Source: Ignavibacteriota bacterium (GTDB lineage: Bacteria > Bacteroidota > Ignavibacteria > Palsa-1295). From it: a stretch of 64,000 bases of DNA. Positions 39,352 through 54,200 of the stretch are shown here, piece by piece. The notes under the pieces were generated by a model that saw only the letters and a list, made by a program, of their open reading frames with translations, was not told the origin of the DNA and made no database searches. Within the stretch, counting starts at the first letter, position 1; each line of letters begins with the position of its first letter. Location: NCBI GenBank assembly GCA_003151825.1, contig PLYO01000037.1:27155-91154 (forward strand), read 5' to 3'. The position numbers were made by a program, and so were the translations under genes.

Positions 39352-39933
39352 ATGGCAAAATTATTAAGCACGATCGCAATAGAGCCGTTAGACCCTCTGA
39401 TCTATTCCGTTAGGGAACAACGTGTAATACTCGATGCGGATCTTGCGCGTTTGTATGGAATTACAACGAGCCGATTCAATGAGGCATTTAAGCGTAACCG
39501 TGAAAGGTTCCCGCATGATTTTGTCTTTCAATTATCAAAGGAAGAATGGGAGTCGCTATTGGTTGTCTCAGAGACAGGCAACCTGTCGCAAATTGCGACA
39601 GGTTCACAGAAGCATCGCGACCCGAAGAAGCGACCCTGGGCTTTCACTGAACATGGCGCTCTCATGGCGGCCAATATTCTTCGAAGCGAACGGGCAACGG
39701 AGATGAGCATTTTCGTCATCCGCGCTTTTGTTAAACTCAGGGAACAAACAGCGGCGAATGCTGCAATCCTAAAGCGCCTTGCAGAAATCGACAACATACT
39801 GTTGCTTCACGACCAGGGGCTGCGCGAATTGTACGATCAAATCATGCCGCTCCTTCAGCCTCCGCCCGTTCCGCCCAAACGAAAAATTGGGTTCCAACGA
39901 GAGGATGAGTCAGGGTCGGCTCTGGGAGTGTAA
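39352..39933 (+). CDS. ORF6N domain protein
   Basis: A 193-aa protein. The ORF6N/KilA-N-type domain covers ~12-100 (YSVREQRVILDADLARLYG, RFNEAFKRNRERFPHDFVF, WAFTEHGALMAANIL). A helical C-terminus ends in a Pro-rich tail. ORF6N domains occur in phage and mobile-element regulators and are thought to bind DNA. Its presence marks the beginning of an accessory stretch. Confidence 0.88.
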   Translation: MAKLLSTIAIEPLDPLIYSVREQRVILDADLARLYGITTSRFNEAFKRNRERFPHDFVFQLSKEEWESLLVVSETGNLSQIATGSQKHRDPKKRPWAFTEHGALMAANILRSERATEMSIFVIRAFVKLREQTAANAAILKRLAEIDNILLLHDQGLRELYDQIMPLLQPPPVPPKRKIGFQREDESGSALGV

Positions 39934-39981
39934 CAAAACCCAAGTTCGAGTGTTATTTGGGTGTTAGTGTTTTAATTATTT

Positions 39982-39986
39982 GGAGG
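39982..39986 (+). promoter_or_regulatory. Shine-Dalgarno sequence that sets the start
   Basis: GGAGG six nt before the ATG at 39992. It supports that ATG over a TTG at 39980 in the same frame. Strong SD sites are rare in this window. Confidence 0.8.
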
Positions 39987-39991
39987 AAACC

Positions 39992-40726
39992 ATGAAAAAG
40001 AACCTATCTCACTCGATGACCTTCGTGTTTGCGGTTGCCGTGCTCGCATGGATGAGCGGCTGCAAAACCGTTACATCACCCAGCACTACCGGCTCGTTTT
40101 CGGGACGAATAGTGCTTTTTGACTCTACACGTTATCAGATGCCGGATTTTTCCGGAGCAACAGTCCAACTTGATGGAACCTCGTTTCACACGACGACAGA
40201 TTCTCTCGGAGCATGGGATATTAGCGGCGTTCCTGAGGGACTCTATAATATCTCAGCTTCTAAACCAGGTTTTGGCACATACCATTGGTACCAGACAAAC
40301 ATGACTGGAGGTACCTATTACCTCTCCACCGTTTACATCGCAAGAATGCCAACCGATGTCCCAGTGCTCGATTCAGTTTGGGGAAGCGCGAGCGATGGAG
40401 GATGGCAATTTGTAGGGCACACCACTGGTGGGATGGATTTTGTTGTGGGATATTGTGATACGAATTCAACCATACAACCATTCGAGCCACATTTGGCGAC
40501 AAACTTAATGGGTTCCTCTGGCGGTTTTGCTGTTGATGACCTTCGAACGGCGGGAGCAAGATCGGGGCAAACCCTCTACATTAGTGTTTCTGCGGTCTTT
40601 AATGCCGGAGGGGATTTAACAGGTTTCGGCGGCCCTCCCTTCATCTTCTTCGATCCCGCTCACAACGAATATCGTTGGGCTTCGACCGGCCCGAAATCAA
40701 ATGTGATTACGGTGACGATGCCATGA
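39992..40726 (+). CDS. Lipoprotein with carboxypeptidase-regulatory-like domain
   Basis: The ATG at 39992 follows a good SD. The 244-aa product has a lipobox (WMSGC, Cys24), a CarboxypepD-regulatory-like beta domain (~38-105: GSFSGRIVLFDS, DSLGAWDISGVPEGLYNIS) and an unassigned C-terminal beta region. The gene's 3' end (PKSNVITVTMP) reappears as a remnant at 41424-41460, so a second copy once existed. Binding role possible; no enzyme motif. Confidence 0.72.
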   Translation: MKKNLSHSMTFVFAVAVLAWMSGCKTVTSPSTTGSFSGRIVLFDSTRYQMPDFSGATVQLDGTSFHTTTDSLGAWDISGVPEGLYNISASKPGFGTYHWYQTNMTGGTYYLSTVYIARMPTDVPVLDSVWGSASDGGWQFVGHTTGGMDFVVGYCDTNSTIQPFEPHLATNLMGSSGGFAVDDLRTAGARSGQTLYISVSAVFNAGGDLTGFGGPPFIFFDPAHNEYRWASTGPKSNVITVTMP

Positions 40727-40740
40727 CAACGCCATATTGT

Positions 40741-40863
40741 GGCCCGTTTGTAGAAACCCATCATTGAATTACAATCCCAAGCTCCGTCAGGAGCGGCCTT
40801 TCACTGGCCACTCCTGACGGAGCTTGATCGTTCTATAATAATATTTTTTTCTACAAACGGGCC
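40741..40863. repeat. Nested inverted-repeat element with 16-bp ends
   Basis: Perfect terminal inverted repeats GGCCCGTTTGTAGAAA / TTTCTACAAACGGGCC (40741-40756, 40848-40863). Inside is a second perfect 15-bp inverted repeat AAGCTCCGTCAGGAG / CTCCTGACGGAGCTT (40779-40793, 40811-40825) with a further GGCC/GGCC core. The size is typical of a non-autonomous MITE-like element. Part of the outer end (CTACAAACGG) recurs at 53891-53900. Confidence 0.85.
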
Positions 40864-40913
40864 GCTGCTAATGCAGCTTTCGCAAATTATTTCAATAAAT
40901 CTTTTGCAATCCC

Positions 40914-40942
40914 TTGACATGGCCGATTTAATCGCTTATATT
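40914..40942 (+). promoter_or_regulatory. Consensus-like sigma70 promoter
   Basis: TTGACA (40914-40919), 17-nt spacer, TATATT (40937-40942). A second promoter at 53979-54007 has the same spacing and the same downstream leader. Confidence 0.75.
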
Positions 40943-40947
40943 AGTAC

Positions 40948-40978
40948 ATGCTTTGATGGGCACCCTGTCCGGGGAAGG
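40948..40978 (+). ncRNA. Conserved 31-nt leader after the promoter
   Basis: Begins 5 nt after the -10 box, at about the expected transcription start, with ATGCTTTGATGGGCACCC and ends GGGGAAGG. 28 of 31 positions match the copy at 54013-54043, with identical spacing from the -10 box. A minimal ATG-CTT-TGA frame is present in both. Role unknown; candidate start of a small RNA. Confidence 0.45.
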
Positions 40979-41273
40979 TAAGAAGTAAGAGTTAAGAAGT
41001 AAGAAATGGGGAGGGAATGTCTGAACCCTTCGGCAAGTTCAGGACAGGGGTTGCGAAAATAAAATGTTGAAATTAGCTCAAAAAAGCCAATATGTGCCCA
41101 TGCGGGCACATCTGTGGCAAAAACTTTGTTCTATATATATGGGGGGTTCATATCCCGGAGGCGAATTGGCCTTCCATAGTACCCCCCTATCCGCGAGCGT
41201 TGAGAGTGTACACATCCCGCTGTCAGTACAGATATGGGTGATCCCTGCACAATGAAATCAAATGGCGCCTGAG

Positions 41274-41328
41274 GGTGATCAAAAAGTCCTGGGCGGGTCT
41301 ACCCTTAGCTTGGGGGACATTGATCACC
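41274..41328 (+). other. Stem-loop in the gene-less region
   Basis: A 9-bp perfect outer stem GGTGATCAA/TTGATCACC with an inner GTCC/GGAC helix and a G/C-rich apical part. No T-run follows. Could be the end of a structured RNA or a site for a DNA-binding protein. Confidence 0.4.
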
Positions 41329-41423
41329 GGAGTTCCTTGAAAATGTATTGTGGCCTGTTGTAGTGTACTCTATCGCAGGTCTTTTAGGTTCAGCTGCAAC
41401 AAAAATGGTGAATCTGCATCGTG

Positions 41424-41460
41424 ACCCAAATCGAATGTGATTGCGGTGACGATGCCGTGA
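41424..41460 (+). pseudogene. Remnant of a duplicated lipoprotein gene (3' end only)
   Basis: Reads PKSNVIAVTMP then stop, one substitution from the end of the lipoprotein encoded at 39992-40726 (PKSNVITVTMP). A stop codon lies just upstream in frame, so only this tail remains. The VapBC-type pair follows. Confidence 0.7.
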
Positions 41461-41548
41461 GACGGTTTGACATTGTTGGGTTTTTAGCCGGACATTTGAT
41501 GAACCCATCGCTTTCCCTCGCGGTTATCGAAATAGCAGCTTTTTTATT

Positions 41549-41773
41549 ATGCACCAGATTTCCATTCAAGAGGCGGAAACGCACATTGCGAGCGTGTTTA
41601 CGGACGTGCTGAAAGGCGAAGAGATCGTCGTGACCGACCACGATACTCCGGTGCTAAAAATGATCCCTCTCGCGCGGCCGAGTGGCCGGCCAAAATTCGG
41701 AAGTTTAAAGGGAAAAATCTGGATTTCTGACGATTTCAACGACACGCCTGAAGAATTCGCAGATTATCTGTAG
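41549..41773 (+). CDS. Phd/YefM-type antitoxin
   Basis: A 74-aa antitoxin. The N-terminal fold is typical (ISIQEAETHIASVFTDVLKG, EEIVVTDHDTPVLKMIPL) and the C-terminal toxin-binding motif is GSLKGKIWISDDFNDTPEEF. It binds and neutralises the PIN toxin encoded 3 nt downstream and should autoregulate the operon. Confidence 0.9.
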   Translation: MHQISIQEAETHIASVFTDVLKGEEIVVTDHDTPVLKMIPLARPSGRPKFGSLKGKIWISDDFNDTPEEFADYL

Positions 41774-41776
41774 GCC

Positions 41777-42163
41777 ATGAACTTCCTTCTCGACACGCAA
41801 ACTTTTGTTTGGTTCGTGATGGGTAATGCACGTTTACCCAAAAAGTGGCGCGCGCTTATTGAGCACCTTTTGAGCGTTAGTTATCTCAGTATTGCCAGTT
41901 TGTGGGAGCTTGCGATCAAGGAGGGTACAGGCAAACTCCATCTCGATGTGACTTTTCCTGAACTCATCGAATGGCACGTACTTGGAAGTGGATTTACCAT
42001 TTTGCCTGTATCAATAAATCATCTGCTCGAACTCCGTAAGCTGCCTCTTCACCACCGCGACCCGTTCGACCGCATTATTATCGCTCAAGGCATCGTCGAA
42101 AATCTCACTGTTGTGACCACCGATCCTGAGTTCGAAAAATATCCTGTGCGGTTAATTCGATAA
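41777..42163 (+). CDS. VapC-type PIN-domain toxin
   Basis: A 128-aa PIN-domain ribonuclease. Acidic active-site residues are Asp6 (FLLDTQTF), Glu44 (SLWELAIKEG) and Asp95/Asp98 (HHRDPFDR). Such toxins cleave tRNA or rRNA when the antitoxin is lost. The module is flanked by a 13-nt direct repeat, ACGATGCCGTGAG (41449-41461 and 42190-42202). Confidence 0.9.
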   Translation: MNFLLDTQTFVWFVMGNARLPKKWRALIEHLLSVSYLSIASLWELAIKEGTGKLHLDVTFPELIEWHVLGSGFTILPVSINHLLELRKLPLHHRDPFDRIIIAQGIVENLTVVTTDPEFEKYPVRLIR

Positions 42164-42275
42164 CGTAGCCGGCCAGCCAGTTTTTCGTAACGATGCCGTG
42201 AGCTTTCCCACCTCCGAGACGTAAATATGCGATGTTGTTGTGGCGAGGGGTCTGGCGCTCGTATTTTTGTACGGA

Positions 42276-42896
42276 ATGTCACGCACGCTTTTTCTTGCAT
42301 CGGAGTCGCCACGGCGGGCGGCGCTCGTCAAGCTGCTTGGCGTGCGGGATGTGAGCATTCGTCCCGCGCGCCTGCATGAAGCGATGGACGCGGCGATGAC
42401 GCCTGCGGAAAATGTCGAGCGGCTGGCCCAACATAAGGCGCGAGCTATCGCGGAGCACCCCTCCCTTACCCCTCCCCTTACCAAGGGGAGGGGTAAGGGA
42501 GGGGTGGTGCTCGGCGCGGACACGACGGTCGCCATCGCGGGCGAAGTCCTTGAAAAGCCGATCGACGCGCGGGACGCGGAACGAATGCTCGCGCTCCTCA
42601 GCGGCAAGACGCATACGGTTTATACCGGCGTGGCGCTGATCGAGATAGAAACGAAGCGGGAACTCTCGTTTGTCGAAGCGACGGACGTGACATTCCGCGC
42701 GCTTTCTACGGATGAAATTCGCGAGTACGTTGCAAGCGGCTCGCCGATGGATAAAGCCGGCGCGTATGGAATTCAGGAAGATTTCGGCGCGGTATTCGTC
42801 ACCCGCATCGAAGGCGATTATTACAATGTGGTGGGACTGCCACTCAGCCGGTTGTACGTAGCATTAAAATCTTTCGAACCGAAATTATGGAAATAG
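42276..42896 (+). CDS. maf: Maf-family nucleotide pyrophosphatase with an inserted palindrome
   Basis: The ATG at 42276 gives the family start MSRTLFLASESPRRAALVKL (an upstream GTG at 42240 is less likely). The 206-aa product has the Maf motifs SESPRR, GADTTVAI, KPIDARDAERML and DKAGAYGIQ. Maf proteins hydrolyse non-canonical or dTTP/UTP-type nucleoside triphosphates. Residues ~61-74 (HPSLTPPLTKGRGKGG) are encoded by an almost perfect palindrome (42456-42506) inserted in frame between a helix and the GADTT strand, where Maf proteins have a short loop. The 3' end overlaps the permease start. Confidence 0.88.
   Translation: MSRTLFLASESPRRAALVKLLGVRDVSIRPARLHEAMDAAMTPAENVERLAQHKARAIAEHPSLTPPLTKGRGKGGVVLGADTTVAIAGEVLEKPIDARDAERMLALLSGKTHTVYTGVALIEIETKRELSFVEATDVTFRALSTDEIREYVASGSPMDKAGAYGIQEDFGAVFVTRIEGDYYNVVGLPLSRLYVALKSFEPKLWK
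42456..42506. repeat. Perfect 24-bp inverted repeat inside maf
   Basis: Arms 42456-42479 and 42483-42506 (CACCCCTCCCTTACCCCTCC and its complement) around a 3-nt centre. Length keeps the maf frame open. Confidence 0.9.
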
Positions 42897-43828
42897 TTGA
42901 TAGTGGAAAGTGGATAGTGGATAGTAATCGACGGCGCCCACGCCGCCTGTTATCCGCTATTCACTATCCACTATCCACTACTACGTGGCTGCTGCTTTCT
43001 CCGTGGCTTATTACGCTCGCGGTTTTTTGGGGCTATCCCCTGCTTTATGCGCTGTATCTTTCGTTCACGAAATATTACACGCTGACGAACCGGACCCATT
43101 GGATCGGCTTTGCAAATTACACAAAGCTCGCGCGCGATCCCATCTTTTGGCAGGCGCTGTTAAATACGGGAATTTTCGTGATCGGAACGATTCCCTTCAC
43201 GATGATCTTCGCGCTTTTTTTCGCGGCGCTGCTGGTGCGGGTGGAGCGGTTCCAGCATGTGTACCGCTCCGCGCTGTTTTTGCCGAGCGTTACGTCCCTT
43301 GTTGTAATTGCGCTTATTTTTACAAATCTCTATGCTTCTGGCGGCTACATCAACACGCTGCTGAAGATGACGGGCTTCGCGTACCCAACGCGCGGGTGGC
43401 TGCTGGAGCCGGGTTTGGCGCTGCCCGCCATCATGGCGATGGACATTTGGATTTCCATTGGCTATTACGCGGTGCTGTTTCTTGCCGCGATGCACAACGT
43501 TCCCAAAGATTTTTACGAAGTAGCGGAACTCGAAGGCACTTCGAAATGGAAACAGTTTTTTACCGTCACGCTGCCCGTCATCAAGCCGACACTGCTCTTC
43601 GCGCTGGTGCTGAACACGATCAAAAGTTTTCAGGTCTTCACCGAAATTTACGTGATGACGCGCGGCGGCCCGCTCGGGCGCACCACGACGCTCGTCTATC
43701 AAGTCTATGCGAATGCCTTTGAATCCGCAGACACAATGGGCTATGCGTGTGCGGCGGCGTTTGTACTGTTTTTTATTATTGCGGTGTTCTCGGTAGTGGA
43801 AAACAAGCTTATCAATCATCCAGCATAA
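42887..43828 (+). CDS. ABC transporter permease, sugar (MalF/UgpA) type
   Basis: A 313-aa membrane protein with six predicted spans. The EAA loop is EVAELEGTSKWKQFFTVTLP, which contacts the ATPase. The pattern LLLSPWLITLAVFWGYPLLY at the first span is typical of binding-protein-dependent sugar permeases. The first ~30 residues (VDSGKWIVDSNRRRP ... YPLSTTT) are encoded by a palindromic repeat, so the true start may lie after it or the repeat extended the protein. The ATPase gene starts in the stop codon (TAATG). Confidence 0.85.
   Translation: MEIVDSGKWIVDSNRRRPRRLLSAIHYPLSTTTWLLLSPWLITLAVFWGYPLLYALYLSFTKYYTLTNRTHWIGFANYTKLARDPIFWQALLNTGIFVIGTIPFTMIFALFFAALLVRVERFQHVYRSALFLPSVTSLVVIALIFTNLYASGGYINTLLKMTGFAYPTRGWLLEPGLALPAIMAMDIWISIGYYAVLFLAAMHNVPKDFYEVAELEGTSKWKQFFTVTLPVIKPTLLFALVLNTIKSFQVFTEIYVMTRGGPLGRTTTLVYQVYANAFESADTMGYACAAAFVLFFIIAVFSVVENKLINHPA
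42897..42990. repeat. Inverted repeat over the permease N-terminus
   Basis: Left GATAGTGGAAAGTGGATAGTGG and right CCACTATCCACTATC type words flank a GC-rich centre. It encodes the first residues of the permease. Confidence 0.75.
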
Positions 43829-45180
43829 TGGCATTCGCACCTATTGCAACTCGCGCGCCGCGCATACCGGCTCCGCATGTCGTTCCGCCGCCGCCGGGTA
43901 AGGATCTGATCGAATTGCGCGACATCGGCATGACCTTCGTCACGCCGAACGGCAAGCCGCTGCCGGTGCTCGAACGTGTTAATATCACGGTTGCGGAAAA
44001 CGAGTTTCTGTGCATCTTAGGCGCGTCCGGCTCGGGAAAATCGACGATCCTTCGCATCATGACGGGTCTGCTAAAGCCGACGATCGGAACTGTTTCTGTC
44101 GATGGCAAGCCGCTGCGTGGAAACAATCCCTACACGGCGATCGTGTTTCAATCCTTCGCGCTCCTGCCGTGGCTGACGGTGGAAGAGAATATCGGTCTTG
44201 GCTTGGATGCGCTCCATGCTCCTCGCGAGGAGGTCGTCGAAAAAGCGAAGCGCGCGATCGACCAAGTCGGCCTCGAAGGATTCGAAGAAGCATACCCGAA
44301 AGAGCTGTCCGGCGGGATGAAGCAGCGCGTTGGCATTGCGAGAGCGCTCGTCGTCGAGCCGCGCATTCTTTGCATGGACGAGCCGTTCAGCGCGCTCGAT
44401 GCGCTCACGGCCGAAAATTTACGCTCGGAAGTGCTCGATCTGTTTCATGCCAACGCGGGAACGTTAAGCTCGGTCGTGATGGTGACGCATTCGATTGATG
44501 AAGGCGTGGAAATGGCGTCGCGTATCATTGTGCTCGATGCGCATCCGGGCCGCATCAAGGCGGAGTTTGCGAACCCCATGCCCTATCCCCGCAACCCGCG
44601 CTCGCAGGAATATATCGATCTTTCGAATCGCATTCACGCGCTTATCACCAACACCGTACTTCCCTTTAGCGAAGAAACGAAAGCCGTTTCGAAAACGGAA
44701 ATCCTTCCCGCCGCAAATATTGAAGAAATTTTGGGATTGCTCGGCATCCTCGCGGCGGAAGGCGGACGGCTCGGCGCCGGCGATCTGGCCGAGGCCGCCA
44801 GCCGTCGCTTTGACGAGACCTTGCAGATTATCAAGGCTGCGGAACTGCTTTCGTTTGTCGAATCGCCCGGCTTAGACGTTGTCATCACGCCGCTTGGAAA
44901 AGAGCTTGTCGAGGCTGACGTCAACGAGCAGAAGATTTTGCTCAACAAGCAGCTACGCAAGCTCCGCACATTCCAATTGCTGCTCGAAACCCTCCAGCAA
45001 AACGAGGGCGAAGTATCGTACGAAGTCCTCATCGAGGACTTCACCTCGCGGATGCCTTACGAGGAGCCTGCACAGCTTTTAGACACCGTTATCGACTGGG
45101 GCCGCTTCGCAGAACTCATCGGTTATCGCTCCAAGGACGACGTCGTTTATCTCGATACGGGCGAGCCGCCGAAGGAGTAA
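43828..45180 (+). CDS. ABC transporter ATPase, NitT/TauT type, with C-terminal domain
   Basis: A 450-aa protein starting at 43828 (MAFAPIATRAPR). ATPase motifs: Walker A GASGSGKST, Q-loop IVFQSFALLPWLTV, signature LSGGMKQRVGIARAL and Walker B LCMDEPFSALDALTAENL. The Q-loop SFALLPW and the last ~150 residues (an AAA-associated/ABC_transp domain: EEILGLLGILAAEGGRL, LNKQLRKLRTFQLLLETLQQ) are typical of nitrate/sulfonate-type importers, not of sugar importers. It is paired with a sugar-type permease, an unusual mix. No binding-protein gene is adjacent. Confidence 0.88.
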   Translation: MAFAPIATRAPRIPAPHVVPPPPGKDLIELRDIGMTFVTPNGKPLPVLERVNITVAENEFLCILGASGSGKSTILRIMTGLLKPTIGTVSVDGKPLRGNNPYTAIVFQSFALLPWLTVEENIGLGLDALHAPREEVVEKAKRAIDQVGLEGFEEAYPKELSGGMKQRVGIARALVVEPRILCMDEPFSALDALTAENLRSEVLDLFHANAGTLSSVVMVTHSIDEGVEMASRIIVLDAHPGRIKAEFANPMPYPRNPRSQEYIDLSNRIHALITNTVLPFSEETKAVSKTEILPAANIEEILGLLGILAAEGGRLGAGDLAEAASRRFDETLQIIKAAELLSFVESPGLDVVITPLGKELVEADVNEQKILLNKQLRKLRTFQLLLETLQQNEGEVSYEVLIEDFTSRMPYEEPAQLLDTVIDWGRFAELIGYRSKDDVVYLDTGEPPKE

Positions 45181-45265
45181 GCGAGATGGATTTTCGGATA
45201 GTGCCCCAATTGTTTCGTATTTTTGAATAAAATGGCGATGAGCCATACTCTCGAAAGGACTAACT

Positions 45266-47158
45266 ATGAAAAAATTATACGGTTTTACGCTCGCAATAGC
45301 ACTTTTTGCGGCTTCTGCTTCTCTTCATGCTCAGACAACGATTTTGCGCCCAGCAGTAGCATTCGTAAAAACCAGCCGGGATACCCTTTTTATCAAGCAG
45401 CCCGATTCCGCCGTGCAAGCCTATTATTTGCCGAAAATCATCACTGACTCGGGGCTGGGTCAGATCGTATATGACTCTATACACCAGCTTGCGGTCATCG
45501 GCATGACCCCCGACGGGAAGCGCTTAGTCATTGGTGGCACGATTTATTATCTCGACCACTCGAGCGGCAACCATGTCTTTTTTCAGGGGATCATCTCCCT
45601 CCCCTGGCCGATCACCACGACCGGCCTCTTGACTCCTTCTACTTCTATTAAAATGATGCTGTCCACCCGGAGCTTTGGACCGAACTTCTCGAGCTTCCGG
45701 CCCGTGGGCGTATTATCCAAGGATGGGAGCCAGTGGTGGGCTACGCTTGTGAGCGCAACGGGTGGGGGGGATGGCTCGCTCACTTTTTATCACGGAAAAA
45801 CCGATGGTTCCGGCTCGATCGATTCGACGACGGACGAAACCGGGATCGTGGACGGTTTCCACATGTCGAATATTGCCCTCGATACAACGAACAATACCAT
45901 GCTCGCCGTGTCCTTCAATGCTGTGACCTCCTCGGACCAAGCGACGGACCTGCATCCCTTTTTCTATGCCTGGAACTTGAAACAGAATAAGGATGTCATC
46001 GGAACCGATTTCAGAGGCAGCCTCACGAGTCTGACGGGCCGTGACACGACATATCTCGATGCTTATTTTGGCTTGACCGTGATTCCGGATAACAATGGTT
46101 CTACTGCCTTGATCGGTTTGACTCCATCTCCTGACAATTCCATCGCTCTTTACGATGTCCCCGATTTCAGTTCAGACTTCAGTCTTTCATCCGCAAACTA
46201 TACAATACAGAGAACGACTACCATCCCCTCGGACGAGGACTTTTTCGCCGGTCCGAATTGCAACGGAATTTATGCAGAGCAAGTCGGACCGGAAAGTGGC
46301 CAGACGGGCAATGCGGGCGACGTGTCCGTCAATTCCATCGGCGGGGATTCCATCCTTTTCGTCACACATGAGTCGCCTTATGACTGTGGCAATCGCAAGG
46401 CGAAGTCCGCGATCTGGATGTACGATCTTTCCGCAGGCACCGCGCAAATGATTTATAACGATCCTTCCGCGCAAGAGCTGCAGCCCGTGTGGATCGTGAT
46501 GCCCTATACGATTCCGGCACCAATTAATTATCCGGGGATCGCGTGGCAGACGGGTCTTGGCGGCAATTTTGGTACGGTAGATACAGGAAAAAGCCAGGGG
46601 TTGACATTCGTTGCCATCGATACCTCGCAGGTCACCACCACAATAGATTCCGCTAACATCACCGGAGCAAATGCGGCTCAGTTCACGCTTTCCGGAAAAA
46701 TATTTCCGACCACACTGAACGCGGGCGGAACGCTTCCAATAGCGGTCACTTTCACGCCCGTTGCACCGGCTGGCTCGGTGAATGCGGTGCTCACCGTCTA
46801 TTTTGAAGGCCAAACGCCCAGCACAATCGCACAACAGCTGAGTGGCAAAGTTGCCTTCCCAGCGAATGGCGTAAAAGAGGATGCCGCGCTTGCCGCTACG
46901 ATGTCTATCGAACCGAATCCATTTTCATCGAGCGCCTTCGTCCAACTCACCGTGCCGGATGCGGGCGCTTTGGGAATTCAAGTGCGTGACGCGCTCGGAC
47001 GGACGGTCTATACGTCCGATCTCCGAGAAACCGGCGCGGGCCAAACGGAATCGTTCGAGTTCGACGCCAAGTCGCTCGGACTTCCGGACGGCGTGTATTA
47101 TGTCACCGCCTTCTTAGGCGAGCGGCAAGCTTCGCGCGCGGTGGTGTTTGTGCATTGA
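45266..47158 (+). CDS. Secreted T9SS-sorted protein
   Basis: A 630-aa product with signal peptide MKKLYGFTLAIALFAASASLHAQ and an AAAGGA SD-like site upstream. Most of the body is an unrecognised beta-propeller-like region. Residues ~435-535 (FGTVDTGKSQGLTF, LPIAVTFTPVAPAG) resemble a choice-of-anchor D-type Ig domain. T9SS type A tail: IEPNPFSSSAF, LGRTVYTSDL, PDGVYYVTAF. Surface-exposed or released protein of unknown function. Confidence 0.8.
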   Translation: MKKLYGFTLAIALFAASASLHAQTTILRPAVAFVKTSRDTLFIKQPDSAVQAYYLPKIITDSGLGQIVYDSIHQLAVIGMTPDGKRLVIGGTIYYLDHSSGNHVFFQGIISLPWPITTTGLLTPSTSIKMMLSTRSFGPNFSSFRPVGVLSKDGSQWWATLVSATGGGDGSLTFYHGKTDGSGSIDSTTDETGIVDGFHMSNIALDTTNNTMLAVSFNAVTSSDQATDLHPFFYAWNLKQNKDVIGTDFRGSLTSLTGRDTTYLDAYFGLTVIPDNNGSTALIGLTPSPDNSIALYDVPDFSSDFSLSSANYTIQRTTTIPSDEDFFAGPNCNGIYAEQVGPESGQTGNAGDVSVNSIGGDSILFVTHESPYDCGNRKAKSAIWMYDLSAGTAQMIYNDPSAQELQPVWIVMPYTIPAPINYPGIAWQTGLGGNFGTVDTGKSQGLTFVAIDTSQVTTTIDSANITGANAAQFTLSGKIFPTTLNAGGTLPIAVTFTPVAPAGSVNAVLTVYFEGQTPSTIAQQLSGKVAFPANGVKEDAALAATMSIEPNPFSSSAFVQLTVPDAGALGIQVRDALGRTVYTSDLRETGAGQTESFEFDAKSLGLPDGVYYVTAFLGERQASRAVVFVH

Positions 47159-47179
47159 AGAAATTCGTCTTTTCAAGCA

Positions 47180-47283
47180 CGTCATTGCGAGGAGCGACGA
47201 AGGAGCGACGAAGCAATCCGTTGAGATTCTGCTGAATGTCCGGAGATTGCTTCGTCGTCCCTCCGGGACTCCTCGCAATGACG
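47180..47283. repeat. ~104-nt palindromic element, second copy of the GTCATTGCGA family
   Basis: Ends GTCATTGCGAGGAG / CTCCTCGCAATGAC, and the inner words GACGAAGCAATCCG and GGAGATTGCTTCGTC are inverted. Matches the element at 20560-20708. It lies between convergent genes. Confidence 0.85.
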
Positions 47284-47313
47284 TATTAAATAATAGAACG
47301 TGAGCGATTCATC

Positions 47314-47601
47314 TCACGTCTTCCACTGAATGTCCCGCACCAGACCGGGACCATACTCGGCGGCAATTTTTTCGATGATAGAAGTTTTCTGCATCGTTAG
47401 CTCATAGCGCCAGACCGCATTTTTAACGCGCACGGTCAGGATGCCTTTATCGAGCTTCTCTGCTACGGTCGCGCTCGCTATCTTTTCGCCGACAATGCGT
47501 GCCCAATCCGTAAGCACCGAATAGTCGCGTGCTTTTTTATCCAGACCGAATTCTTTCAGGACTTCGGAAATCACTTTTTGGAGCGACAGAGGTTGATTCA
47601 T
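47314..47601 (-). CDS. DciA-like (DUF721) protein
   Basis: A 95-aa protein. DUF721 pattern: LQKVISEVLKEFGLD, W-x-x-IVGEKIASAT and GILTVRVKNAVWRYELT. DciA proteins help load the replicative helicase DnaB in bacteria that lack DnaC. Located 18 nt after recF on the same strand, as in many genomes. Confidence 0.85.
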   Translation of the reverse strand: MNQPLSLQKVISEVLKEFGLDKKARDYSVLTDWARIVGEKIASATVAEKLDKGILTVRVKNAVWRYELTMQKTSIIEKIAAEYGPGLVRDIQWKT

Positions 47602-47619
47602 GGGTGCATTCGGCTAACG

Positions 47620-48762
47620 CTAACATACAGAGCCGCGTTCGATGGAAAGAATTCGATGATCGTTGGAACTCAGTCCGAGTAATGATTCAAATCGCTCGCG
47701 TTCGGTCGAAGTAATAAACGTCTGTCCGAGTTCGCCAGACATAGCAAGCTCTAACATCGTTCGAGCGCGCTCGCGGTCGAGTTCGCTGAAGACATCATCG
47801 AGCAGGAGCATCGGCGTTTCACCAGCAGCCTCTTTTAGATATTCGAATTCGGCAAGCTTCATGGCAACGAGCAGCGTTTTATGCTGCCCTTGCGAGGCAT
47901 ACAGCCGCGCTTCCTGTCCGGGATTGATAAAAAACATAAGTTCATCCCGGTGCGGCCCGAACAACGTTGTGCCCCTCCGCACTTCCTCAATGTTGCAGAT
48001 TACTGCCTGCTCCGCGAGCAGCGCCTCGAAATTTCCGGAAGAAGCCTCTAACCCCATCGGCAAATATGCAAGCGATGGTTCTTCGCGGCTCTGTGAGATT
48101 ACTCGATACGCATGGAGCAACCGTGGGCGGAATTCCTCCGTGAAGCGCGCACGCCGCCGCATGATGCTGGCACCATGCTTGAGGACGAGTGCCGTCCACG
48201 GTGCGAGAAGTGGCTGAATAGCGGAAAGCGATTGCCGCTTTTGCCGCGCGTCCGAAAGAATCGCATTGCGCTGTTTCAGAGCGCGGCGGTATTCGAGTTC
48301 GTCTTCGAGATACGCGCGGCTCGCCTGCGAAAGAACCATATTGAGAAATCGCCGCCGCTCCGAAGGCGGCCCCCCGGTAATGATTTTTTCATCCGGCGTA
48401 AGCACCACGACCGGCGCGCGACCAATTAAGTCCGCATAAGTTCGAATACGTTCACTGTTAGCAACAATCGTTTTTTTTAATCGCAGTCCCGACTCAATCT
48501 GGATCGATACATGATGCCCGACGCCAAGATCGCTGACCGACCGGGCTTCGACTTCGAGCAACACGTCGCCCTGACGGATAAGCACAGCATCCGATTGAGA
48601 TGAAAAGCTTTTGGTCAGTGTGGCGAGAGAAATCGCTTCGAGAATCGAAGTTTTCCCTGCGCCGTTCGGGCCAACGAGTACGTTTATTTTCGGCGCAAGA
48701 TCGCGGACGAACGTATCCGCATGATTGCGGAAGTTGCGAAGGTGAATGGAAGAAGCGCGCAC
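47620..48762 (-). CDS. recF: DNA replication and repair protein RecF
   Basis: A 380-aa SMC-like ATPase with GTG start at 48762. Walker A GPNGAGKTSI (31-40), the RecF-specific LRNFRNHAD near the start and the RSFGPHRDEL-type block TLFGPHRDELMFF, plus Walker B MLLLDDVFSELD. It loads RecA at single-strand gaps. Downstream of dnaN, a common order, with a palindrome in the gap. Confidence 0.94.
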   Translation of the reverse strand: MRASSIHLRNFRNHADTFVRDLAPKINVLVGPNGAGKTSILEAISLATLTKSFSSQSDAVLIRQGDVLLEVEARSVSDLGVGHHVSIQIESGLRLKKTIVANSERIRTYADLIGRAPVVVLTPDEKIITGGPPSERRRFLNMVLSQASRAYLEDELEYRRALKQRNAILSDARQKRQSLSAIQPLLAPWTALVLKHGASIMRRRARFTEEFRPRLLHAYRVISQSREEPSLAYLPMGLEASSGNFEALLAEQAVICNIEEVRRGTTLFGPHRDELMFFINPGQEARLYASQGQHKTLLVAMKLAEFEYLKEAAGETPMLLLDDVFSELDRERARTMLELAMSGELGQTFITSTERERFESLLGLSSNDHRILSIERGSVC

Positions 48763-48794
48763 GCTATTGTTTTGAATCTTAAATGTGGCTTTAT

Positions 48795-48886
48795 GTCATT
48801 CTTGCGAAAGCGGGAATCCAGATTCGGATTTGCCGCAAAGAGTTATCGCACCGCAAGGACTGGATTCCCGCTTTCGCGGGAATGAC
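48795..48886. repeat. Palindromic element between dnaN and recF
   Basis: 27-nt arms (48795-48821 and 48860-48886), GTCATTCTTGCGAAAGCGGG... and its near-perfect complement, with a short unrelated centre. A different family from the GTCATTGCGA elements. Confidence 0.85.
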
Positions 48887-48914
48887 AATGAATCAGTCAC
48901 ATAATCCAAAAAAA

Positions 48915-50030
48915 TCAACCATTCAGCCGCACGGGCATGACGAGCATCAGCAAATCTTCCTCGTTCGTGCTTACGGGTTCGACGATAGCGGCGCGCGTGG
49001 GCGTCGAAAATTTCAGCGTGATGTCTTCGGTGTCGAGGTGCGAAAGCGCATCTTCGATAAAGCGTCCGTTAAAGCCGATCGTCAGTTCATCGTCGGAGTA
49101 ATCGCAGGGAATTTGCTCGCGCGCTTCGTTGCCGGCGTCGTAGTTTTCAGCAAGCACGGACATCTGATCCTTCGCAAGCTGAAAGCGAAGCTGTTTCGTA
49201 TTGGCATTCGCAAAAATCGAAACGCGCTTGACCGAGCGGAGCATCGCGTCCTTCGAAATGGTGAGCATCTTATCGTTTTCGCGCGGGATAACGGCCTCAT
49301 AATTCGGATAACGCTCGTCAATGAGCCTCGAAAGAATTGTCGTTGCGCCGGACTGAAACTCCACGTGGGTCGGGCTGAAACGGAGCGTAATCGAGTCGGC
49401 GTCATCGTAAGATTTCGCTACTAATCCGAGCGCTTTGGCGGGCACGATAATATCGAGTTCGGTTTCGGTCTTGAGCGTCGCATTCGTGAATCGCACGAGG
49501 CGGTGACCGTCGGTTGCAACGGCGCGGGTGCCATCGGGCGAAAATTGGAAGAGCACGCCCATCATGCTTGGACGAAGATCGTCCGTCGAAACAGCAAAGA
49601 GGGTTTTTGCAATAAGACGCTTTAGCGTTGCGGCATCGACGGGAATCGAGCCTTCGGGCTTGAAGTCCGCAGCAGCATTCGGAAGCTGCGCCGTTTCATC
49701 GACGGCAAGTTGATAATTTCCCTGCGCCGTTTGCAACGTAGCACGCCGCGTGGTCTTGTCGAGCGTAAAGGTCAGCTCGCCCTCGGCCAGCGCGCGGACG
49801 ATCTCATAAAAAAGCTTCGCAGGAATGTTGGCCGTGCCATCCTTCACGCCGCTGACTTCCATCGAGGCGTTCACGGTAATTTCGAGATCGGTGCCTGTGA
49901 AGGTGAGCGTGTCGCCTTTTAGCTCGACGAGCACCGTTTCGAGCTGCGGCAGCGTGGACTTCGTGGGAATAACGGCGATGACTTTCGCCAGTGTATCTTG
50001 CAGGGGCTTGATTTGCGCGATGAATTTCAT
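48915..50030 (-). CDS. dnaN: DNA polymerase III sliding clamp (beta subunit)
   Basis: A 371-aa clamp. Family features: FTGTDLEITV, VPAKALGLVAK, RLIDERYPNYEAVIP and the C-terminal LLMLVMPVRLNG, which closes the peptide-binding pocket. It forms the ring that tethers DNA polymerase. dnaA is not next to it in the window, so this need not be the replication origin. recF follows. Confidence 0.95.
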   Translation of the reverse strand: MKFIAQIKPLQDTLAKVIAVIPTKSTLPQLETVLVELKGDTLTFTGTDLEITVNASMEVSGVKDGTANIPAKLFYEIVRALAEGELTFTLDKTTRRATLQTAQGNYQLAVDETAQLPNAAADFKPEGSIPVDAATLKRLIAKTLFAVSTDDLRPSMMGVLFQFSPDGTRAVATDGHRLVRFTNATLKTETELDIIVPAKALGLVAKSYDDADSITLRFSPTHVEFQSGATTILSRLIDERYPNYEAVIPRENDKMLTISKDAMLRSVKRVSIFANANTKQLRFQLAKDQMSVLAENYDAGNEAREQIPCDYSDDELTIGFNGRFIEDALSHLDTEDITLKFSTPTRAAIVEPVSTNEEDLLMLVMPVRLNG

Positions 50031-50390
50031 TGAGATGGTTAGAACAGAAAATTATAAAACTAGGTGTACCCAAACAAAAAAATACGTTGAGCAAGAACAA
50101 GAACAGCAAAAACCAAACGGAATTCCCCCAACTTTTAATAATATTGATCGCAGGAAAAACCCGTTCCAAAATATGGGAAGCATCGCACGAAGTAACTTCG
50201 AACGCTATCGGGCCGTGGCGATCTTCGCTCCGTTAGGAGTGCAATCTTTGTAGCCGTGGGTTTTAACCCTCGGTATGAAGTACACAATGGGTTTTTAGCT
50301 CCGGTAGGAGCGGCATAAAGCGCCAGCCGCCAACGAGCGGTTGGTGGGATTAAGCTACGCGACCGGGGCGGGATAAAATGCTTGCCTAAG
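50031..50390. other. Gene-less region upstream of dnaN
   Basis: AT-rich 200 nt that must carry the dnaN promoter, then a palindrome-rich part (50248-50373). No cluster of DnaA boxes is seen, so an origin is not supported. Confidence 0.5.
50248..50373. repeat. Composite palindromic element
   Basis: Begins TTGTAGCCGTGGGTTTTAACC (hairpin CCGTGGGTT/AACCCTCGG), continues with GGGTTTTTAGCTCCGGTAGG and CGCCAGCCGCCAACGAGCGG. It ends near GCTACGCGACCGGGGCGGGA. Shares the outer GTAGCC/GCTAC words with other elements here. Confidence 0.6.
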
Positions 50391-50750
50391 ATGTTGCTAT
50401 ATAAGATGATTAGCCCTTCCAGAACCTTCTCACTCCAATATTATACCGCGAAGAACGGAAAGGACTACTATAAGGAGTTCCTCGATACGCTTGATGACCA
50501 GACCAGCACGAAAGTTCAGGCACAGGTCGCAAAACTCGCGGTGGGCATTGGAAAAGTAAAGACGCTGGCAAATAAGCTATGGGAACTCAAAGTAGAGCAC
50601 GGGCCGGGATATCGAGTACTGTTTACCCGCCGGGGAAGTGAGATTGTCCTCATTCTTGCCGGTTCCGATAAGAGCGATCAGGAGAGAATCATATCGTTAG
50701 CGAAACGGTTAATTATCGAGATCGAAGAAACAGAAAAAAGGAAAAAATAA
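50391..50750 (+). CDS. HigB/HI1419-type toxin (RelE/ParE family)
   Basis: The start is uncertain (ATG 50391 or 50406). The ~119-aa product has the pattern AKNGKDYYKEFLDTLDD, LWELKVEHGPGYRVLFTRRG and LAGSDKSDQERIISLAKRL, typical of phage-derived Gp49/HI1419-like mRNA interferases. The toxin comes first, as in HigBA-type modules, with the partner 1 nt downstream. Confidence 0.85.
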   Translation: MLLYKMISPSRTFSLQYYTAKNGKDYYKEFLDTLDDQTSTKVQAQVAKLAVGIGKVKTLANKLWELKVEHGPGYRVLFTRRGSEIVLILAGSDKSDQERIISLAKRLIIEIEETEKRKK

Positions 50751-50751
50751 C

Positions 50752-50994
50752 ATGCCATTCAAATCACACGAAGATTTTATGCGAGAATACCTCGCCGACC
50801 CGGAAATGGCCGCTGCGTACCTCAATACCTGCATTGAAGACGGGAACCCGTGGCTGATTGCCGATGCGTTCCGATTAGTCGAACAGATTCATGGCAAAAA
50901 ACGGCATTTTCGCCTTCGGTTGGAAGCGGTTCCTGTTCACACCCCAAAACCGCGCCGCGCGCCCGCTAAACGAACGCGAAGGGTTGCAGCATAA
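50752..50994 (+). CDS. Partner antitoxin, apparently lacking its HTH
   Basis: An 80-aa protein. The first ~45 residues (MREYLADPEMAAAYLNTCIE, GNPWLIADAFRLVEQIHG) match HI1420-type antidotes. These normally continue with a helix-turn-helix of ~45 residues, but here the sequence jumps to KKRHFRLRLEAVPV and a basic Pro/Arg tail. An internal deletion is the simplest reading. It may still bind the toxin but not DNA. Confidence 0.7.
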   Translation: MPFKSHEDFMREYLADPEMAAAYLNTCIEDGNPWLIADAFRLVEQIHGKKRHFRLRLEAVPVHTPKPRRAPAKRTRRVAA

Positions 50995-51130
50995 TGCGCC
51001 CGCCACCAGCGCGTGGGGGACGTGGTTAAGCAGCGACGGGTGAGTTAAGTGGTTTTAATGTTGGCCCGCTTCGTGCAGTGAGTGTGTCATGTGGAGCATA
51101 TACGCTACACATCAAAGAAAGGAACTCAAA

Positions 51131-51598
51131 ATGAAAACCTACATCGTTCTAACCGCACTCCTCGTGTGCGCGGGCGGTGACGCAGGTGCAAAACGTCACG
51201 TCCAACGACAGAGCTATTACTTAGATAGCCTCGTTCGCGCCGAATTCAGATACGCACCGAATGACCCGACGACATGGGATCAAAACAAACGGCTTGGCAT
51301 GGCCAATTTCGTTCTTCAGGATGAATGGGCATGGTCCAAGCTACTCTCCAGCGGGAAGGTTAATACAGATCACAACTTCACGGTAACGCTCGTCGGCCAA
51401 AAGGACCGGCAAGTGAGCATTGCGGAGTTCCGCGCTGTCTTTGCCGCCGATATGGCCCGCGCCGATACGTTACTATATAACTTCCGGCTATTGTGCGCGG
51501 CCAAAAAACACAGGAGCCCATATACTGTTATCTTCGAGCGAGCGTATGAAACAGCTTACGCCCGCAACGAGAAGGCCGCAGCTATCGCGGCTCGATGA
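51131..51598 (+). CDS. Small secreted protein, unknown
   Basis: The ATG at 51131 follows AAAGGA. The 155-aa product starts with a hydrophobic stretch (MKTYIVLTALLVCAGGDAGA) that fits a signal peptide. The rest (EFRYAPNDPTTWDQNKR, VTLVGQKDRQVSIAEFRAVF) is not a recognised family. Confidence 0.6.
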   Translation: MKTYIVLTALLVCAGGDAGAKRHVQRQSYYLDSLVRAEFRYAPNDPTTWDQNKRLGMANFVLQDEWAWSKLLSSGKVNTDHNFTVTLVGQKDRQVSIAEFRAVFAADMARADTLLYNFRLLCAAKKHRSPYTVIFERAYETAYARNEKAAAIAAR

Positions 51599-51629
51599 GA
51601 GCGATAGTTATTATTATCGAGAAGCGGTT

Positions 51630-51683
51630 CACGGCATGGCGTTTCGCAGTCAGAGTTTCTGCGAAACGCCGTGCTGTTTTAAT
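51630..51683 (+). terminator. Strong hairpin after the secreted protein gene
   Basis: Imperfect 18-bp stem CGGCATGGCGTTTCGCAG / CTGCGAAACGCCGTGCTG followed by TTTTAA. Confidence 0.65.
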
Positions 51684-51777
51684 ACGTCGTGTTGTATCCA
51701 CGCTGTGCTTAAGAAGCAAAAAAAGACAAACCAATACTCACCCCTCCTTGTTATTTATTATTCAATTTCAAAATACA

Positions 51778-52371
51778 ATGAACAACCAGGAATCAGAATT
51801 TCCGAACGACTTTAATGGTCATTCATCAGCCTCGAAAAAAATTGACCTTGACCGCCTCTATAATCAGGGTTTTACCGAGGGTCAATCAGATAAGGAAAAC
51901 GGCATCTCAAACCACGCAATCCTCAAGGGCGTTGATTCTTCCGACATTAATGTGATGGCATTTTCGCGTGGATACCATGACGCTCACGTGCCCGAGTCTA
52001 AAATGTATGGAGGAGCATTGGGAATTTCCCACTATATCGTTGAATTACCATATGACTGTGCCGAAAAGCCTTGTAGATTCCAAATCTTGAGGGTTTACAT
52101 GAATGACAAGCGAGAGTTTGCAGCAAAGATTGAGTACCAATGGATGCTCAAAGGTGGACAGATTCCATATTTTGGACTGGGAACCTATAAATTTAAAGCT
52201 AAAAAAAGTTTGCATGGCGAAGCCTTCGATCTCGAGATAGATGCAGAGGGAATTGAGGAAGCTGTCGGACTATTGGCTATTAAGCATCCCGAGTTCGGGA
52301 ATGTTGAAGTTATACCGCATCCATCGTGCTTAAACCTATTCCGTAAAGGTATCCGTTTAGTCGCTGAATAA
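51778..52371 (+). CDS. Unknown cytoplasmic protein
   Basis: The ATG at 51778 is chosen because the sequence before it is a hairpin region and reads as an unlikely N-terminus. The 197-aa product (MNNQESEFPND, YNQGFTEGQSDKENG, YIVELPYDCAEKPCRFQIL) has no recognised domain and no signal peptide. The next gene is 10 nt downstream, so they may be co-transcribed. Confidence 0.6.
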   Translation: MNNQESEFPNDFNGHSSASKKIDLDRLYNQGFTEGQSDKENGISNHAILKGVDSSDINVMAFSRGYHDAHVPESKMYGGALGISHYIVELPYDCAEKPCRFQILRVYMNDKREFAAKIEYQWMLKGGQIPYFGLGTYKFKAKKSLHGEAFDLEIDAEGIEEAVGLLAIKHPEFGNVEVIPHPSCLNLFRKGIRLVAE

Positions 52372-52381
52372 GAACAACTAC

Positions 52382-52813
52382 GTGAATAAAAGGCAACGAT
52401 TAGTCCTCTGGTTAAGCTTTGGCCTTGTCGTGATTTCTGCTTTATTTCCGCCAAAGCAAGCTCATTACACTGGCAAAAGCATTGCGGAATTTAGGATAGA
52501 CACAACTCAACTTTTGGTAGAATGGACATTCATCCTTCTCCTCGCTGGAATCGCAATACTTGCGCTCTATACAAAGCAAGGTTCAATCGAGAGCAAAGTG
52601 TTAAAAGAGAGCAAGGACGATGAGGCATCTATTTCTCCACTTCGAAGATGGCACCGCCAATTGATATGGATTGCAGCAGCCTACTTCCTTGGAGCATTGG
52701 CTTTTCTTTCGAATAGCGCCGATGTTGGAACTGCATTTTTTCAACTGTTTTGTGCTACACTCCTTTTATTTCTTGCCCTGTTAGGCTGGCGATCTCGAAT
52801 CGAAAAATCTTAA
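52382..52813 (+). CDS. Small membrane protein, unknown
   Basis: A 143-aa product, GTG start at 52382. Four hydrophobic segments (near residues 8-22, 45-62, 95-108 and 118-136), with basic loops between. Not recognised. The end is 4 nt from a convergent lipoprotein gene. Confidence 0.6.
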   Translation: MNKRQRLVLWLSFGLVVISALFPPKQAHYTGKSIAEFRIDTTQLLVEWTFILLLAGIAILALYTKQGSIESKVLKESKDDEASISPLRRWHRQLIWIAAAYFLGALAFLSNSADVGTAFFQLFCATLLLFLALLGWRSRIEKS

Positions 52814-52817
52814 TTAT

Positions 52818-53465
52818 TCATGGCTTGAAGTCAAGTGAATCTTGATGAGTGAGTGAATCATTAGTAAATTTATGAACGCTAATTGGACCCATTACCAAAA
52901 TAAGGTAGGGGTTTTTTACCCCATCGACTTTGAGCATTACCTGCACTGAATCCTCGGCTCTAGGTATCATCCACTGTGCTAAAGCCGTATTTTTTCCGCG
53001 TGCAAACTCACGGGACTCTTCTTCGGCGTCATTAGAAGCCAATTTTTTAGACTTAAACACGTATTGCTCGGGAGGACCCAAGAACGAAGCCAATTTTTTT
53101 TCTGTTTTCAAAAATTCGTCAGAAAGAGGAGTATCTTTTTCAAATATGATAAGCACACGATAAAACCGAGTCGGCGAAACGTGATGGTATAGGAACCAGT
53201 CGCTGACTTGATTTCCCAGGTAGACTCCACCCGTGTAATGGGATGAACCCGGATCAGATTCTGCCGAATCGTACACAGCATCACGCTCAGTCATTTCCTG
53301 CAATTCGTCGGAAGGCATGTCACCCCAGCGCAATCCTAGAAATCCTTCCCTTATAGATAATGGAGCGGATCTCAAAGCACCTGACTCTGTTTTCGGAGTC
53401 GTATTTTTATTATTGCACCCTCCGAAAATAAAAATAACCAGAGATAAAAAAGTGATTGTCCTCAT
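52818..53465 (-). CDS. Lipoprotein, unknown
   Basis: The ATG at 53465 gives MRTITFLSLVIFIFGGC with a lipobox (FGGC, Cys17). The 215-aa mature part (REGFLGLRWGDMPSDELQEM, YHHVSPTRFYRVLIIF, FAYGKNTALAQWMI-like segment) is alpha/beta and not recognised. Confidence 0.65.
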   Translation of the reverse strand: MRTITFLSLVIFIFGGCNNKNTTPKTESGALRSAPLSIREGFLGLRWGDMPSDELQEMTERDAVYDSAESDPGSSHYTGGVYLGNQVSDWFLYHHVSPTRFYRVLIIFEKDTPLSDEFLKTEKKLASFLGPPEQYVFKSKKLASNDAEEESREFARGKNTALAQWMIPRAEDSVQVMLKVDGVKNPYLILVMGPISVHKFTNDSLTHQDSLDFKP

Positions 53466-53504
53466 AAGTTGCAAAATTTTGGTGTTTGGGTGTCCTATTT
53501 TACC

Positions 53505-53738
53505 TTAATTGCTCCTCCGATAACTCCTAATCGGGTCCGTACTTCCCCGTTTCCCCGTAAACGGATTGTAATTCCCTCTCGTGCTCCAATTATTGAGGCG
53601 GGAGTGATCGGGCACGCTGCGATAGTGCGGCGCAACGTAAGTACCCGTGCGGCGATTGTAATGTCCGCGAACGTGTACCTGCGCCATCGCTGCGAGCGGC
53701 GTCAGAAAAAGAATGATGCCGAGTATGATCGTCTTCAT
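53505..53738 (-). CDS. Very small secreted protein, GNYNPxTGK type
   Basis: The ATG at 53738 opens a signal peptide (MKTIILGIILFLTPLAAMAQ); 77 aa in total. The mature part VHVRGHYNRRTGTYVAPHYR ... NWSTRGNYNPFTGKRG matches a widespread family of small secreted proteins of unknown role. The longer in-frame start upstream lies in a repeat and is rejected. Confidence 0.75.
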   Translation of the reverse strand: MKTIILGIILFLTPLAAMAQVHVRGHYNRRTGTYVAPHYRSVPDHSRLNNWSTRGNYNPFTGKRGSTDPIRSYRRSN

Positions 53739-53820
53739 ATTGATTGTCTCCTTATTGCTACATGATGAGTTATGGGTCATTAAGCGTGCCAGAAAATCTG
53801 AACCGGGATTTATTGCTCGC

Positions 53821-53949
53821 CGTGTAGCCCGAAGCTCCTGCTTCGGTGCGGCCACTAGGCCCGAGCTGGAGCTCGGACCTACACACGATTCTACAAACGG
53901 GTCGTCCCATAGCGGGGCAGTCGGGCTGGAAGCGCCGACCTACGCGGGA
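53821..53949. repeat. Composite palindromic element
   Basis: GTGTAGCCCGAAGCTCCTGC is mirrored by GAGCTGGAGCTCGGACCTAC, followed by CTACAAACGGGTC (also the end of the 40.74-40.86 kb element) and GTCGGGCTGGAAGC with CGACCTACGCGGG (also at 361-425). Several element families are stacked here. Confidence 0.75.
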
Positions 53950-53978
53950 TAAAATTTTCGATTATTTTCGGGAATCAC

Positions 53979-54007
53979 TTGACTTCGGCATTTTTATTTC
54001 GTAAGTT
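53979..54007 (+). promoter_or_regulatory. Sigma70-like promoter, second copy
   Basis: TTGACT (53979-53984), 17-nt spacer, TAAGTT (54002-54007). Same spacing to the following leader as at 40914-40942. Confidence 0.6.
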
Positions 54008-54012
54008 AGGAG

Positions 54013-54043
54013 ATGCTTTGATAGGCACCCTGTCTCGGGAAGG
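54013..54043 (+). ncRNA. Conserved 31-nt leader, second copy
   Basis: ATGCTTTGATAGGCACCC ... CGGGAAGG, 5 nt after the -10 box, as in the copy at 40948-40978. Three differences in 31 nt. No gene follows. Confidence 0.45.
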
Positions 54044-54200
54044 CAAAAAATGGAGGGTACGAGTTCATTGACAATTTGGCGGATAGTTTTCATATAGAAG
54101 TTTTATTATGAATTCTGGACACACAATTGGCGAAAGCGGCTCAGAAACGCCACAGTTCATGAACTCTGAACTCCCCCCCGCACACGATAATTGCCATTTA

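Follow-up and report, generated by a model that had tools for sequence, protein, structure and literature searches.

LexA is the repressor of the DNA-damage (SOS) response and usually also regulates itself at the lexA promoter, and in the gammaproteobacteria its operator, the SOS box, has the form CTGT-N8-ACAG. Repeats of the BOX, Correia and REP/BIME kinds are intergenic and modular and reach tens of copies, and the HEARO and IscB omega RNAs are multi-copy structured RNAs. Here we describe two promoter loci in a 64,000-nucleotide (nt) stretch of DNA from an Ignavibacteriota bacterium (GenBank assembly GCA_003151825.1, contig PLYO01000037.1, positions 27,155 to 91,154 of the forward strand; hereafter the window, in which all positions are given). 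Just after the −10 the two loci share a conserved stretch, most likely an operator of LexA, and downstream of the first lies a structured RNA which we have named RNA B in this analysis. The likeness to known LexA systems lies in a canonical LexA, in boxes at lexA and translesion polymerase promoters and probably in the 4-8-4 geometry of the dyad, while the differences are the motif itself, GTGC-N8-GCAC(C), the number of boxes (about 38) and the location of most of them on noncoding repeat modules. It is the presence of a putative SOS operator, or of a large covarying RNA with a pseudoknot, which sets these modules apart from the BOX, Correia and REP/BIME repeats, and unlike the HEARO and IscB omega RNAs the RNA B copy in the window has no match in Rfam.

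CI-like repressors have been described in the Bacteroidetes, a phylum without canonical LexA (PMC8565304). The system described here resembles these in placing SOS control in the wider Bacteroidetes/Chlorobi neighbourhood and differs in that the LexA protein is canonical. The article mentions 17 reported LexA motifs but contains none of the words Chlorobi, Ignavibacter and Kapabacteria. In the titles and abstract openings of part of the literature matches we found no LexA motif for this lineage (the 17 motifs were not compared with ours) and nothing on RNA B, and the search returned no paper combining Kapabacteria and LexA.

At locus 1, the −35 TTGACA (40914–40919) is followed by a 17-nt spacer and the −10 TATATT (40937–40942), and then after 5 nt by the 31-nt leader ATGCTTTGATGGGCACCCTGTCCGGGGAAGG (40948–40978), while at locus 2 the same arrangement is seen with TTGACT (53979–53984), a 17-nt spacer, TAAGTT (54002–54007), 5 nt and a leader (54013–54043) differing from the first at 3 of the 31 nt. 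Both promoters (40914–40942 and 53979–54007, plus strand) are sigma70-like predictions from the sequence, and in the first case the box-adjacent −10 recurs across the genome and the family. All of this agrees to the base with the initial annotation of this DNA, which had also held that neither locus is followed by a credible gene for hundreds of bases. This is so at locus 1, where a gene-less region of 822 nt (40727–41548) extends to an open reading frame (ORF) at 41549 belonging to an antitoxin-like gene, but not at locus 2, where the minus strand carries a convergent gene for a 501-amino acid VWA protein whose end, at 54201, is about 160 nt past the leader. The further structure that had been suspected after locus 1 is RNA B. 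The first part of each leader is the putative LexA operator, ATGCTTTGATGGGCACC at 40948–40964 and ATGCTTTGATAGGCACC at 54013–54029 (both plus strand); the former is like the boxes that precede lexA, dinB, a umuC-like gene and mutS in relatives, and the latter assignment draws on pattern counts across the genome.

We searched the 3.59 Mb genome that contains the window (the own genome) using reversed patterns as controls. The whole leader is rare, with the 31-mer (three positions free and no more than three mismatches) found at three places, the third on contig C29, and at none in the controls. Its 19-nt core was found at 32 places compared with one in the control, and core plus −10 at 32 places compared with none, so that the recurrence exceeds chance. 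Only about the first 17 nt of the leader recur across the genome, and the remainder is a variable spacer common to few copies. In aligned copies TATATTAG, or a form close to it, is separated by a short spacer from TGCTTTGATGGGCACC, and the sequence beyond differs. The two pattern searches together gave 41 places, of which 38 were analysed. Three were left out: C3:97629, which by eye lies within coding repeats, and two at the ends of contig C42 whose boxes are partial. For the initial annotation, a leader lying inside a longer mobile repeat unconnected to the promoter would have counted against its reading. This holds in half: most of the own copies do head dispersed modules, but the −10 is present at the expected distance in all 37 boxes not cut by contig ends (one base nearer in seven), 30 of which had been detected without the −10 in the search pattern. 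The earlier observation that conservation begins at the expected transcription start is supported, and the distance from the −10 is nearly fixed. The conserved part, ATGCTTTGATRGGCACC, lies just after the −10, as might be expected of the binding site of a repressor that blocks transcription start, and it contains the partial dyad GTGC-N8-GCAC. In the 34 own boxes used for the dyad analysis (the other four were cut or had more than four mismatches within the 31-nt slice) GGCACC is invariant, and GTGC-N8-GCAC is the best dyad centre among those with at least six pairs, both in these and in the boxes of relatives.

A search of 41 genomes with the −10 plus box pattern, comprising the family of 13 (own genome included) and 28 others of the class, showed that copies of the conserved stretch are present in relatives as well as in the own genome, as the initial annotation had anticipated. 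The pattern was found in 10 of the 13 family genomes (own counted), in none of the 28 others and in none of the reversed controls. Eight of the 19 hits in relatives precede lexA, each in a different genome, and seven of the eight encoded proteins score above the TIGR00498 cut-off; the eighth protein is cut by the end of the locus, scores 77 bits and retains PF01726. One hit each was found before dinB and mutS (both in genome G006) and before a umuC-like gene (G010). The own lexA also carries the box, with the gene starting 162 nt after it, and encodes a canonical LexA with PF01726 and PF00717 domains and a TIGR00498 score of 190.8 bits against a cut-off of 110.95. Other own boxes are found at dinB and at the gene for a protein (locus L030) which looks similar by eye to proteins that follow boxes in G002 (L148 and L152). 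Of the three, L030 and L148 were scanned; neither has a Pfam match, and L030 gave none in NCBIfam either. We note that a 'RecA-like' label was also given to these three proteins by eye, but with no Pfam match for L030 or L148 it is not used as evidence here. The three are candidates for uncharacterised SOS proteins of the family.

The initial annotation had read the shared stretch as the common 5' end of two transcripts, and it might accordingly be an RNA leader that acts after transcription in a family of RNAs. The start of the stretch at about the expected transcription start and its nearly fixed distance from the −10 would suit such a leader. However, the box is a partial dyad, and at lexA and the other SOS genes before which it recurs the sequences downstream of it are unrelated, which a DNA operator explains better. 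The sequence after locus 2 also lacks two-sided covariation (see below), and we therefore consider the RNA leader improbable. From the computed positions, copies and linkage to lexA we infer instead that LexA binds the box and that the adjoining promoters would be induced by DNA damage. As this step goes beyond what was computed, a different repressor which also controls lexA could bind there, but LexA autoregulation is the usual arrangement, dinB, mutS and the umuC-like gene are linked to the box too, and we give such a repressor slightly less credence again than the RNA leader. If the box is indeed a LexA operator, it gives this uncultured lineage a LexA-binding motif that can be tested.

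Several observations weigh against the operator. In relatives, the genes after eight of the 19 hits could not be recognised as having a part in repair, namely radical-SAM, succinyl-CoA-ligase-like, ClpB-like and S1-domain genes, those for L148 and L152, and two further genes whose proteins have no Pfam match. The dyad is less well kept on its left side (outer G in only 15 of the 34 own boxes, then T in 31, G in 27 and C in 34), and a shorter centre with only five pairs scores 0.55 compared with 0.42 in the own boxes, and 0.46 compared with 0.47 in those of relatives. As the boxes were found by pattern, their conservation is also in part the result of selection by the search. On the same side are the genes following the own boxes, among which no classic SOS gene was recognised beyond lexA, dinB and the gene for the L030 protein, and which include rplM, rplK, nadE and tmk.

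These genes were considered for all 38 own boxes, and the next gene lies on the same strand in 25 cases and on the other strand in 11, with two not assigned, among them dinB, which extends across the limit; the calls were made with our own codon heuristic and some of the short downstream ORFs may be spurious. The Pfam scan covered 23 of the 25 same-strand proteins (L091 and L078 were left out), with six matching no Pfam family and the others including LexA, ribosomal proteins L13 and L11, NAD synthase, thymidylate kinase, a Mg-chelatase-type protein, methylmalonyl-CoA mutase, a histidine kinase, OsmC and a short-chain dehydrogenase/reductase (SDR) enzyme, while one protein has a PcrA/UvrD tudor domain below the cut-off. 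As the next genes are mostly not SOS genes, the boxes look to have spread along with a repeat and not to have been positioned at genes for repair, and many of them may be passengers. Consistent with this, a match to RNA B or to a second dispersed module, module A, was found within 520 nt downstream of 35 of the 38 boxes and within the same length upstream of only one of 35. The exceptions with no module downstream are dinB, L030 and C3:85203, and the own lexA box is followed only by the end of module A, with three mismatches in 20. It is a serious possibility, though one we rate at somewhat less than even, that a dispersed element carries the boxes on modules, those of both window loci included, as inert passengers and that only lexA, dinB and a few more genes are regulated. 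This would be compatible with the box being a LexA operator. Against it, the sequence upstream of the −10 is by eye of several types and yet box and −10 have stayed intact, an argument weakened by the selection of the boxes by search.

Taken together, we consider it probable that a LexA operator after the −10 is part of a unit which has spread to about 38 sites, and that RNA B is independent of it and only incidentally located behind an SOS promoter. LexA bound just after the −10 would block RNA polymerase, and self-cleavage of LexA following DNA damage would open the promoter. The promoter plus operator unit would have spread within the lineage to these sites mostly ahead of dispersed noncoding modules, with the transcript of locus 1 (about 440 nt) running through RNA B to end at a hairpin and TTTT near 41386, and that of locus 2 running through module A towards the convergent gene. 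The spread of SOS operators on noncoding repeats would be a natural case of possible regulon rewiring.

The two window transcripts would not be of one kind, since locus 1 leads into RNA B and locus 2 into the unrelated module A. The latter is a dispersed noncoding repeat without a gene located at 54063–54164 (plus strand), with GTTCATTGACAA at 54063 and AAACGCCACAGTTCATGAAC at 54145–54164. When module A was considered as a structured RNA, 19 aligned copies gave two short nested stems and no two-sided changes, and as a small ORF it was rejected because the reading frame, judged by eye, shifts between copies. Covariance modelling downstream of the leaders, suggested in the initial annotation, was thus rewarded at locus 1 only, where RNA B shows strong covariation.

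The RNA B core is about 196 nt in length (41190–41385, plus strand) and is defined by two covariance models, R1 and R2, and by pair counts. We drew the structure from one own copy and the consensus of 23 sequences (17 of the 37 own matches plus six copies from sister species), and calculated statistics for its 49 pairs from the same 23. The proportion of cells paired was 91.1%, a level reached by none of 500 shuffles (84.1% in these), and it was 34–42% when slid; two-sided changes were seen at 22 pairs compared with 11.3 in shuffles, and the covariation score was 0.252 compared with 0.159. The excess of G-U pairs (165) over A-C mismatches (32) places RNA B on the given strand, which is also that of the locus 1 promoter. 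Stem P3 (41213–41217/41236–41240, plus strand) is conserved as a stem in the core and is made of many different sequences with the pairing retained. On the P3 side of a proposed loop-loop pseudoknot, AGTACA (41225–41230) would pair with TGTACT (41364–41369) in the loop of a 3' hairpin which is followed by TTTT (41352–41385, all on the plus strand); this hairpin, backed by its sequence and by helix 10 of the pair counts, is a possible intrinsic terminator. The pseudoknot was found as AGUACA × UGUACU or close forms in most of the parsed RNA B copies (16 of 18 chosen copies were parsed, with L113 at the wrong place), and in the sister copy L190 both sides are altered together to AGCGCA × UGCGCU. 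The 3' hairpin of L107 is misaligned in alignment A3 and its pseudoknot rests on separate parsing (same site as L190). At least TTT follows the hairpin in nine of the 29 readable own copies.

We found nothing near the gathering score of any Rfam 15 family in positions 40700–41560, the window copy of RNA B included, and the only Rfam matches in the window were two tRNAs. RNA B is a structured RNA family with strong support, a proposed pseudoknot and no match in Rfam. In the own genome it is represented by 49 matching pieces when a DNA query is used and by 37 matches with each of R1 and R2. Sister species of the same genus have 12, three and one matches with R2 and eight, two and one with R1, where R2 was built partly from sister copies that it then found, and of the three matches in G003 one is a mere fragment, 38 positions long and about 110 nt away from the next. 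Neither model found RNA B in the three other members of the genus, nor in 34 further genomes (41 searched in total), although the stricter filters used can lose weak matches. Of 100 genomes, the DNA query found matches in three, which belong to the genus without exception and include the own genome, and an exact pattern scan returned one named record, a metagenome-assembled genome of an uncultured Ignavibacteriae, and none among viral contigs. Contig C2 of G004 and contigs C12, C21, C39, C40, C45 and C51 of the own genome end in or near RNA B, and as repeats break assemblies, the copy numbers are likely to be lower bounds. The very unequal copy number among sister species (37, 12, 3, 1 and none) makes the origin and function of RNA B accessible to comparison.

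High copy number and a compact structure are also what might be expected of a guide-type RNA from a transposon system with TnpB or IscB. This we consider very improbable for RNA B, as the TnpB zinc-ribbon PF07282 was found in none of the seven genus genomes, with the control positive in six of 14, and the window copy does not match Rfam; IscB (PF14239) was also matched in none of the seven, a result without weight since its control was positive in none of 14. Y1 transposases (PF01797) were found in all seven genus genomes (G000 to G006) with five to 11 matches in each, but as they are present with or without RNA B they do not alone explain it.

Most of the readable own RNA B copies are preceded by a motif of their own. 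The start of RNA B was located in 35 of 40 loci, and GAAAC-16-CGTA, which resembles the promoters of extracytoplasmic function (ECF) sigma factors, lies shortly upstream in 18 of 28 own starts (eight of the 28 are of another type and two are cut) and in four of seven in sister species. Of these 22 in 35 found by pattern, the spacer is 16 in 21 and 15 in one. We therefore regard RNA B as largely outside SOS control, and our best guess is that it is an autonomous amplified small RNA, limited to the genus, which is sometimes caught behind SOS promoters. In three more copies (L046, L048 and L054) the promoter-like sequence upstream has by eye been kept without −10 and box, which suggests that the combination of box and RNA B was once commoner. 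The window copy instead has a type I 5' part (41022–41189, plus strand) in common with other type I copies, in which GGGGGG (41141–41146) and CCCCCC (41182–41187) can be paired by eye.

The covariation was computed, and sigma factor, transcription, termination and RNA function are inferred. The points that tell against parts of this account are that the measure of further pair types is within the shuffles (199 of 500), that L197 retains only four pseudoknot pairs, that no T run follows the hairpin in 20 of the 29 readable own copies, and that the window copy lacks GAAAC-CGTA and has the G-run/C-run pairing upstream instead. The SOS link of RNA B is also thin, as RNA B lies within 520 nt downstream of only three of the 38 boxes, locus 1 among them. 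We advance only tentatively, and as rather doubtful, the wider proposal that RNA B represents a structured RNA of a new class, brought to tens of copies in the manner of a selfish element, which together with the dispersed SOS operators forms a damage-responsive noncoding layer. If true, a single signal of DNA damage would activate many noncoding transcripts together in the genus.

Other features surround the two loci. Inverted arms GGCCCGTTTGTAGAAA and TTTCTACAAACGGGCC lie upstream of locus 1 at 40741–40756 and 40848–40863, and a similar TCTACAAACGGG stretch upstream of locus 2 (near 53890–53909), also seen in L037, L043 and L058, is another dispersed repeat. A 27-nt direct repeat (93%) at 40700–40726 and 41434–41460 flanks the locus 1 region; this is the 3' end of the gene at 39980–40726 recurring after RNA B, and it is perhaps the remnant of a tandem gene copy. 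Beyond it, a Phd/YefM antitoxin-like gene followed by a PIN-domain gene (41549–42163) is likely to be a type II toxin-antitoxin pair, and on the other side an ORF6N-domain protein, a domain often found in phage-derived genes, is encoded at 39352–39933. Finally, palindromes of the GTAGGTCGG...CCGAC kind were seen in several loci, and together with the Y1 transposases these suggest a REP/RAYT system.

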